A stretch of 64,000 nt of DNA from an uncultured Flavobacteriales bacterium (GTDB lineage Bacteria > Bacteroidota > Bacteroidia > Flavobacteriales_D > Sanyastnellaceae): positions 124,001 through 188,000 of the forward strand of contig CALKGQ010000011.1 in the NCBI GenBank assembly GCA_938085425.1, read 5' to 3'. The notes beneath the pieces are model-generated. The model was not told where the DNA came from. It saw only the letters and a program-made list of their open reading frames with translations, and searched no databases. Below, in pieces: positions 7,279 to 57,734 of the stretch. How positions within the stretch are numbered: the first letter of the stretch is position 1; each line of letters starts with the position of its first letter. The position numbers and the translations under genes were made by a program.

Positions 7279-8558
7279 CCAAGCAGGCAGGCACATCGCC
7301 CCTTCGGACCGTTCACAAGTTTGGCGGCGCCTCCGTGAAAGATGCCGACGCCATCCGTCGCATTGGCGATCTCTTAGGGGAACATCTCTCCAGTGAAGAG
7401 CAAGCGGTTGTTGTGGTGTCAGCCATGGGGAAAACGACCAATGCCCTCGAGGCCATTTTGGAGGCTCCGTCCCATGGCCGTGAGGTCCTCTGGCAAACCC
7501 TGGTCTCTGGTCATTTGGCGGTGGCGAATGCGCTCGAACTGGGTCCAGAATGCGCCCGTCGGGTCCAAAGCGTGATGGAAGGCGCATGGCAAGAATTCTT
7601 GCAGGCCACAGATCCTGAAATGCAATACGACGCGCTTGTGGCCGCAGGAGAACTCGCGAGCACCACCTTGGTGCAGGCGTCGTTGGCGTCGTCAGGAGTG
7701 AAGGCGCTTTGGTGGGATGTCAGGGACACTTTGCAAACAGAGGGACCCCACCGTTTTGCCCGTGTGGAGGAATCTGGCTTGACGCACATGGGGCATACCC
7801 TGCGTGGACAGTGGGACGGTCCAGATCCGCCTCGCATTGTGGTCACCCAAGGTTTCATCGGCCGCCACAGCGACGGCCGCACTTCCACGCTCGGCCGAGA
7901 GGGATCGGACTACAGCGCGGCCTTGCTCGCCGTGGCCACCCATTGCGCATCGGTGACCATTTGGAAGGATGTCCCAGGCATGATGAATGCCGACCCCAAG
8001 CGGCACCCAGAAGCGGTCACTGTCCCCCGAGTGGACCATGCGGAGGCGGTTGAATTGAGTTATTACGGCGCAGGGGTCATTCACCCCCGAACGATCAAAC
8101 CCCTCCAACAAACGGGTCTGCCCCTGAAGGTCCGTTCCTTTGTCCACCCCACTGGCCCCAGCACGCACATCGACGCGTTCCCGGGATTGGTCCCAGACGT
8201 GCCGATGTTCATTTGGAGGGACAATCAGGTTTGGCTTGAGGTGTCCACTGCCGACCAGAGCTTTTTGGCAGAGGATCATTTGAAGACACTTTTTGAAGCG
8301 CTCCACCACGTGGGCCTTCACGTGCGGTTGATGCAGCAAAGTGCGACCCATTTTGGTTTGGTCATGGACAGGGACGATGCCCGCCTTTCCAGATTGGAAC
8401 AAGATCTTGCTCCAGCCTTGGTGGCCCAACGGTCGGAAGGCCTGCAATTGCTGACGGTCCGCCATGGCGATGCAGCGGTGCTCGACCGGTTGACAGAAGG
8501 CAAGGACGTGTTGATTGAGCAGCGCACGCAAGCGACATGGCGTCGCCTTTTGCGCTGA
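7275..8558 (+). CDS. lysC: Aspartate kinase
   Basis: Phosphorylates L-aspartate, the first step toward Lys, Met, Thr and diaminopimelate; cytosolic, 427 aa. Visible motifs: N-terminal VHKFGGASV (KFGG at about 15-18), the nucleotide/aspartate site around TSTLGREGSDYSAALLA, and KDVPGMMNADPK. The remaining ~130 residues form a regulatory ACT-type region; no fused homoserine dehydrogenase follows. ATG 7275 overlaps the GNAT stop (ATGA). The candidate ncRNA and an intrinsic terminator lie 3' of the gene. Confidence 0.93.
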   Translation: MTKQAGTSPLRTVHKFGGASVKDADAIRRIGDLLGEHLSSEEQAVVVVSAMGKTTNALEAILEAPSHGREVLWQTLVSGHLAVANALELGPECARRVQSVMEGAWQEFLQATDPEMQYDALVAAGELASTTLVQASLASSGVKALWWDVRDTLQTEGPHRFARVEESGLTHMGHTLRGQWDGPDPPRIVVTQGFIGRHSDGRTSTLGREGSDYSAALLAVATHCASVTIWKDVPGMMNADPKRHPEAVTVPRVDHAEAVELSYYGAGVIHPRTIKPLQQTGLPLKVRSFVHPTGPSTHIDAFPGLVPDVPMFIWRDNQVWLEVSTADQSFLAEDHLKTLFEALHHVGLHVRLMQQSATHFGLVMDRDDARLSRLEQDLAPALVAQRSEGLQLLTVRHGDAAVLDRLTEGKDVLIEQRTQATWRRLLR

Positions 8559-8606
8559 AAGTCAGGAAAATAGAGGGTCGTTCGGGCCAGAAATTTGGTT
8601 TTCCCA

Positions 8607-8614
8607 AACATTTG
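8607..8614 (+). promoter_or_regulatory. -7-like box in front of the candidate ncRNA
   Basis: AACATTTG, one mismatch to TAnnTTTG, ends 4 nt before the first paired base of the RNA (8619). That is the distance expected between a Bacteroidota -7 element and the start site. No clear -33 TTG. Confidence 0.35.
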
Positions 8615-8618
8615 ATTC

Positions 8619-8729
8619 ACATTGCTAGAACCAAAGGATTGGTCTCCTTTGGATTGGTACGAGCGGTTCTTCGGAGCTGCTCGAGTTCAATGTCAAGTGG
8701 GGCGGGACGCAAGTCCCGCCTTTTCTTTT
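8619..8729 (+). ncRNA. Candidate structured small RNA: three-way junction plus terminator
   Basis: No coding frame fits here, but the DNA folds into an ordered RNA. P1 pairs ACATTG (8619-8624) with CAATGT (8688-8693). Inside it sit two hairpins. P2 is CCAAAGGA (8631-8638) with TCCTTTGG (8645-8652), 6-nt loop. P3 is GAGCGGTTC (8661-8669) with GAGCTGCTC (8674-8682), closed by a UUCG tetraloop and containing two G-U pairs. A GC-rich terminator hairpin with a GCAA loop and U-tract follows at 8701-8729. Junction strands are 6, 8 and 5 nt. It could be an independent sRNA or a processed lysC 3'UTR. I cannot assign it to a named family; Rfam's Flavo-1 is worth testing. Confidence 0.6.
8701..8729 (+). 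terminator. Intrinsic terminator
   Basis: Perfect 8-bp stem GGCGGGAC/GTCCCGCC (8701-8708, 8713-8720) with a GCAA tetraloop and a run TTTTCTTTT. Ends the ncRNA and/or the lysC transcript. Confidence 0.85.
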
Positions 8730-8775
8730 GGGAAAAAGTGGGGCCGATGCAGAGTGGAGTGGTCCTCGAGGGAGA

Positions 8776-8997
8776 TCAGTATTCGTCTTCGTTGAAGAAG
8801 AAATCCTCCTTGGAAGGATAGTCAGGCCAAATGTCTTCGATGGTCTCGAAAGACTCGCCATCGTCCTCCAACTGTTGCAAGTTCTCCACCACCTCCAACG
8901 GCGCACCCGTCCTCATCGAGTAATCGATGAGCTCATCCTTGGTGGCGGGCCAGGGAGCGTCTTCCAAGTAGGAAGCCAATTCAAGTGTCCAGTACAT
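8776..8997 (-). CDS. DUF2795-like small acidic protein
   Basis: A 73-residue soluble, acidic protein that I recognise as a strongly conserved Bacteroidota family annotated with DUF2795. It begins MYWTLELASYLEDAPWPATK and ends in the near-invariant EDFFFNEDEY. The DUF2795 fold is helical and has been proposed for small regulatory or nucleic-acid-associated proteins, but no function is established. It has its own promoter with both -33 and -7 elements (9021-9050), giving a 23-nt leader, and is convergent with the ncRNA unit. Confidence 0.85.
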   Translation of the reverse strand: MYWTLELASYLEDAPWPATKDELIDYSMRTGAPLEVVENLQQLEDDGESFETIEDIWPDYPSKEDFFFNEDEY

Positions 8998-57661: not shown

Positions 57662-57734
57662 CGGGATGTAGCTCAGTTGGTAGAGTACGCGTCTGGGGGA
57701 CGTGTGGTCGCTGGTTCAAGTCCAGTCATCCCGA
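57662..57734 (+). tRNA. tRNA-Pro (anticodon GGG)
   Basis: Cloverleaf read by hand: acceptor CGGGATG/CATCCCG (57662-57668, 57727-57733), D-arm GCTC...GAGT, anticodon stem CGCGT/ACGTG with loop CTGGGGG (GGG at 57695-57697), T-arm GCTGG-TTCAAGT-CCAGT, discriminator A 57734. The C1-G72 pair and A73 are typical of bacterial tRNA-Pro. CCA is not encoded in full. Flanked by its own promoter box and a strong terminator. Confidence 0.96.

Follow-up and report, generated by a model that had tools for sequence, protein, structure and literature searches.

Several small RNAs of the Bacteroidetes provide points of comparison for the locus studied here. Flavo-1 (RF01705) is a free-standing noncoding RNA candidate (PMC2864571), and 6S-Flavo (RF01685) is likewise a free-standing noncoding RNA of ~100 nt. 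The Bacteroides FopS/GibS sRNAs (RF04319), of which FopS is a multicopy paralogous family, have a single-stranded seed located before the terminator and are bound by the RRM protein RbpB (PMC11697453). Neighbours at the level of the order are the Rfp sRNAs of Flavobacterium psychrophilum (e.g., Rfp18), which are conserved, strongly folded and independent and have TAnnTTTG promoters, with the -7 box at positions -12 to -5 (PMC9723704).

In this work, we analyzed a short element between lysC and a DUF2795 gene in a 64,000-nt stretch of DNA (the window) from an uncultured Flavobacteriales bacterium. An earlier sequence-only reading had proposed a structured RNA at this place, with a three-way junction, its own -7 box and a terminator, that would be either a known RNA such as Flavo-1 or a new one. 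The locus is very likely a real noncoding RNA gene, and its RNA, absent from Rfam, represents a new family of bacterial sRNAs of an ordinary kind. The second of the two options was thus borne out by the cmscan comparison that had been suggested, in which no Rfam 15 family matched the stretch or its homologues. Only sub-threshold matches (STnc400, rpsL_pseudo, DapZ, L20_leader, FopS and others) were obtained for this part of the window and the homologous loci. The Flavo-1 model gave no match at its gathering score, and none appeared when the cutoff was relaxed to E<=10 for the stretch itself and to E<=5 for the homologues. Assignment of the locus to the bacterial small SRP RNA (RF00169) was rejected, as the SRP RNA is located on another contig of the genome (C14:20180-20278, 54.9 bits). 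A tRNA gene at 57662-57734 (+) is the sole Rfam match at the gathering threshold in the window.

FopS/GibS and the window RNA are both Bacteroidota sRNAs in which a conserved, mostly single-stranded stretch immediately precedes an intrinsic terminator; in this stretch, the AT-rich relatives of the window RNA share a loose UUAG-UUUAA-GUUAA likeness with FopS. However, these relatives score 24.6-26.3 bits against a gathering score of 56, the window itself is unmatched, and the window RNA is single copy and has two extra hairpins, HP1 and HP2. The 6S-Flavo model is unmatched at the locus, and the window RNA lacks the long interrupted helix; in a search of 12 family genomes (G000 and 11 relatives), run without a positive control, this model found nothing at E<=1, so 6S RNA is undetected or very divergent there. 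The Rfp sRNAs were compared with the window RNA by their published description. No earlier description of the RNA was found in a literature search of incomplete coverage.

Promoter, fold and covariation

The predicted elements of the locus are as follows.

8595-8597, + strand: -33 element TTG; nearly all homologues have TTG or a near match 18-21 nt upstream of the -7 box
8617-8624, + strand: -7 box TCACATTG (TAnnTTTG type), overlapping the 5' strand of the proposed helix P1
8629-8729, + strand: the small RNA itself, with a predicted length of ~101 nt and a start uncertain by +/- 2 nt; folds better than all 200 dinucleotide shuffles (z -6.79); homologues in nine genera
8631-8652, + strand: hairpin HP1, arms CCAAAGGA (8631-8638) and TCCTTTGG (8645-8652), loop UUGGUC
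8660-8683, + strand: hairpin HP2, GAGCGGTTC (8661-8669), TTCG (UUCG tetraloop), GAGCTGCTC (8674-8682); two of the pairs are G-U, and a C-G pair at 8660/8683 extends the stem
8684-8700, + strand: conserved block AGTTCAATGTCAAGTGG, common to all genera; candidate seed or protein-binding site
8701-8729, + strand: intrinsic terminator, 8-bp stem GGCGGGAC (8701-8708) and GTCCCGCC (8713-8720), loop GCAA, directly followed by the T-run TTTTCTTTT (8721-8729)

A site of the type TTG-N18-21-TAnnTTTG precedes HP1 in every genus that carries the RNA. In the window it consists of TTG, a 19-nt spacer and TCACATTG, which in the window's genus is a poor match to TAnnTTTG, and the 19-nt spacing is kept throughout the window's clade. 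In all 15 test loci, drawn from nine genera, the site outscored every other one in the 70 nt upstream; its summed score was 116 versus 76.8 +/- 3.8 for shuffles (maximum 89 in 500), where the assumed 5' ends had partly been chosen with the box in view and the best-site search spanned the whole upstream stretch. By computation, the gene is thus predicted to have its own promoter, with a signature whose position is conserved in all genera.

By analogy with the -7 box position in F. psychrophilum, we placed the start at 8629, and transcription should begin near this position to give an RNA of ~100 nt. The sequence-only reading had chosen another box, AACATTTG (8607-8614), with a start near 8618 and a unit of roughly 110 nt. 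That box is present but is conserved within the genus only, and its slot scores 76 in the same promoter test, whereas all genera retain the promoter that ends at 8624; a discrete unit with its own promoter and terminator stands, at ~100 nt, and the proposed box and start do not.

An inverted repeat at 8594-8608 (TTTGGttttcCCAAA; TTTGGAAtTTCCAAA in the relative L014) occupies the spacer that separates the -33 element from the -7 box. Conservation within the genus extends over this entire spacer, so that the repeat is a putative binding site of a regulator.

The segment 8607-8740 folds with a z of -5.55 and beats all 200 dinucleotide shuffles. Covariation was scored, with shuffle and slide controls, on a 17-sequence model alignment that was fitted to the modelled structure and is therefore biased towards it; in this alignment, both-side changes occur in five of eight pairs of HP1 (98% of cells paired), in six of the seven modelled pairs of HP2 and in six of eight pairs of the terminator stem (100% of cells paired). 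No shuffle reached the observed covariation, and the slid controls were all far lower. These compensatory changes support three hairpins, HP1, HP2 and the terminator, in agreement with the two inner hairpins (8631-8652 and 8661-8682) and the terminator of the sequence-only reading. The terminator, a covarying GC-rich hairpin with a T-run, has the properties of an intrinsic terminator, and its variants among the homologues include G-U pairs as read on the + strand.

The closing helix P1 found no such support. All the sequence elements on which it and the rest of the sequence-only reading were built are indeed present, including ACATTG at 8619-8624 and its complement CAATGT at 8688-8693, the two proposed strands of P1. 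The helix is invariant among close relatives, and hence these are uninformative either way. Over the wider set, breakage is the sole departure seen in four of its six pairs, and one more never varies; the breaks are uncompensated even though the alignment was fitted to P1. Since its 5' strand lies inside the conserved -7 box, it would be promoter DNA outside the RNA, which explains conservation without covariation. The three-way junction depends on P1 and is likewise unsupported; the covariation analysis in relatives that had been proposed upheld the other helices.

The conserved part of the RNA differs between clades. The AT-rich genera (L066, L054, L063) combine a frozen HP2 with a freely changing HP1. 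In g1, g4 and g9 (the window, L045, L049), it is the loop of HP1, GGAUUGGUCUCC, that hardly varies, and HP2 is free; the sequence of this loop is variable elsewhere.

Distribution and genomic context

The DNA search found the element with 81-87% identity in six further genomes of the window's genus and, in part, in one other genus. A covariance model built from these eight sequences (R1) gave matches at E<=0.1 in 31 of the 114 genomes of the family, including strong ones in g1, g9 and g4; many of the weak ones also adjoin the DUF2795 gene, and reading of DUF2795-adjacent loci revealed the same RNA in g29, g5, g12, g2, g15 and g6. In total, at least nine genera of a single Flavobacteriales family (~27 of the 114 genomes) carry the RNA, and its chromosomal junction is the same in all of them. 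The AT-rich relatives (six genera) share a core with 89% mean column identity, AAGGCAAAUUUUCAUAGUUACAAUG...UUGUAAUGGUAGUUUUAGUUUAAUGUUAAGUGG, followed by the terminator.

A second model (R2) was built solely from the six AT-rich genera, without the window's genus. In the genome of the window, it retrieved the window RNA as its sole match, at an E-value of 0.0046 (E-values of both models are rough), on contig C11 at 132656-132727, i.e., 8656-8727 of the window; it also recovered the other g1 carriers, g9 and several g4 genomes. This recovery is an independent test of homology. The DNA search and both models agree on one significant copy in this genome.

No convincing homologue was found outside the family in samples of 399 genomes of the order and 395 of the phylum. 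Weak R2 matches in g30, g3 and other families or classes (L159, L160, L166, L170, L173, L215, L216), which mostly sit just after genes, were rejected as resembling generic terminator hairpins. Five viral-contig matches of the conserved motif all belong to a single type of phage structural gene and lack the RNA fold, and the weak DNA match L016 is coding and does not fold; both were discarded. Outside the known loci, matches of the conserved 15-mer fall within ORFs, on either strand, and were likewise set aside, with the exception of one possible further homologue in genus g8 (L185 / L175, G070), a weak, isolated match with GTTAATGTTAAGTGG directly before a terminator hairpin. Within the family, four g1 genomes gave no match, and their incomplete assemblies also lack the DUF2795 gene. 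The RNA is absent beside the DUF2795 gene in the sampled g10, g14 and g30 loci and in some g4 loci, and decayed or strongly rearranged versions occur at the same junction in L098 (G041) and L121 (G076).

On the same strand, the RNA is preceded by lysC in g1, g2, g5, g6, g12, g15 and g29, and by a GNAT acetyltransferase gene in g9 and g4; the framing of the element as a lysC 3' region is therefore not general. Downstream lies the convergent gene of a 73-aa DUF2795 protein, from which the RNA is separated by an exbD-like gene in g6. Neither neighbour is obligatory, and thus the small RNA is an independent, free-standing gene. The DUF2795 protein (8776-8997, -) is itself strikingly conserved: it was found in 105 family genomes, and in nearly all of these its identity is 86-100%.

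The conserved stretch and its possible function

The sequence AGUUYAAUGUYAAGUGG just before the terminator is the sole block common to all genera, with small variations in g4. The mean unpaired probability of its first 12 nt is 0.68 versus 0.35 for the whole RNA, and it is the higher of the two in 23 of 23 homologues. By analogy with FopS/GibS of Bacteroides, a base-pairing sRNA is the likeliest role, and the RNA probably works in trans through this stretch. We infer that RNA polymerase with the housekeeping sigma factor would start at ~8629 on the + strand from TTG-N19-TCACATTG and stop at the terminator, whose last nucleotide is 8729. The product of ~100 nt would comprise a 5' hairpin, a second hairpin, the conserved, mostly unpaired stretch and the terminator hairpin. 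The conserved stretch would then base-pair with mRNAs, and one of the two RRM_1 proteins of the genome (C2:91944-92156 and C14:126705-126908), which are of the type that binds FopS sRNAs in Bacteroides, may assist this pairing.

The conserved stretch may just as well be bound by a protein as serve as a pairing seed. A structured RNA that acts through a protein by sequestering or guiding it, in the manner of 6S or Rsm-type RNAs, with the conserved stretch and HP2 as the binding site, is a possible but somewhat unlikely explanation: the HP2 core and the stretch that follows it are nearly invariant in six genera (89%), beyond what a short seed needs, and 6S-Flavo went undetected in the 12 family genomes (again without a positive control), whereas the sequence of HP2 is free to change in g1, g4 and g9 and the fold has no long interrupted helix of the 6S type. 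A more specific version, in which a protein-binding RNA restricted to the family serves, e.g., as a functional stand-in for 6S RNA, is suggested by the nearly frozen core in six genera alongside a free HP1 and undetected 6S RNA, and by the shift of constraint in the window's clade from HP2 to the HP1 loop; we regard it as very unlikely. Release by processing from the lysC 3'-UTR, as a derived RNA or terminator structure without its own promoter, would fit the position of lysC, whose 3' end lies on the same strand 53-135 nt ahead of the RNA in seven of nine genera, but it is at odds with the GNAT gene upstream in the other two and with the promoter signature ahead of HP1 in all genera, which leave it unlikely.

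We give still less credence to a DNA-level or merely structural element, either a terminator region between convergent genes or an antisense to the DUF2795 transcript. Most carriers do have the element between convergent genes, but covariation is also seen in HP1 and HP2, which lie well away from the terminator, all 23 homologues fold more strongly on the + strand, and the exbD-like gene of g6 intervenes before the DUF2795 gene; such an element is very improbable. A small protein-coding gene is less credible again and is best regarded as extremely unlikely. The claim that the sequence cannot code was overstated, as ORFs of 94 aa (8537-8821, +), 57 aa (8622-8795, +) and 93 aa (8625-8906, -) cross the stretch, and an AUG lies within the conserved block. 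However, the homologues differ in length by other than multiples of three and conserve stems over codons, which makes coding unlikely, and a peptide from the conserved AUG was rejected because its frame would continue through the terminator and the changes follow the stem pairs. Covariation in three hairpins combined with out-of-frame length changes amounts to conserved structure without coding, as in a free-standing sRNA gene.

The case of P1 shows that a promoter box complementary to the RNA body can be mistaken for a closing helix. To our knowledge, few small RNAs of Flavobacteriales have been described outside Flavobacterium. The RNA family reported here now has a usable covariance model, its promoter and terminator boundaries are predicted, and at least nine genera carry it, so that the transcript and its targets are directly testable.
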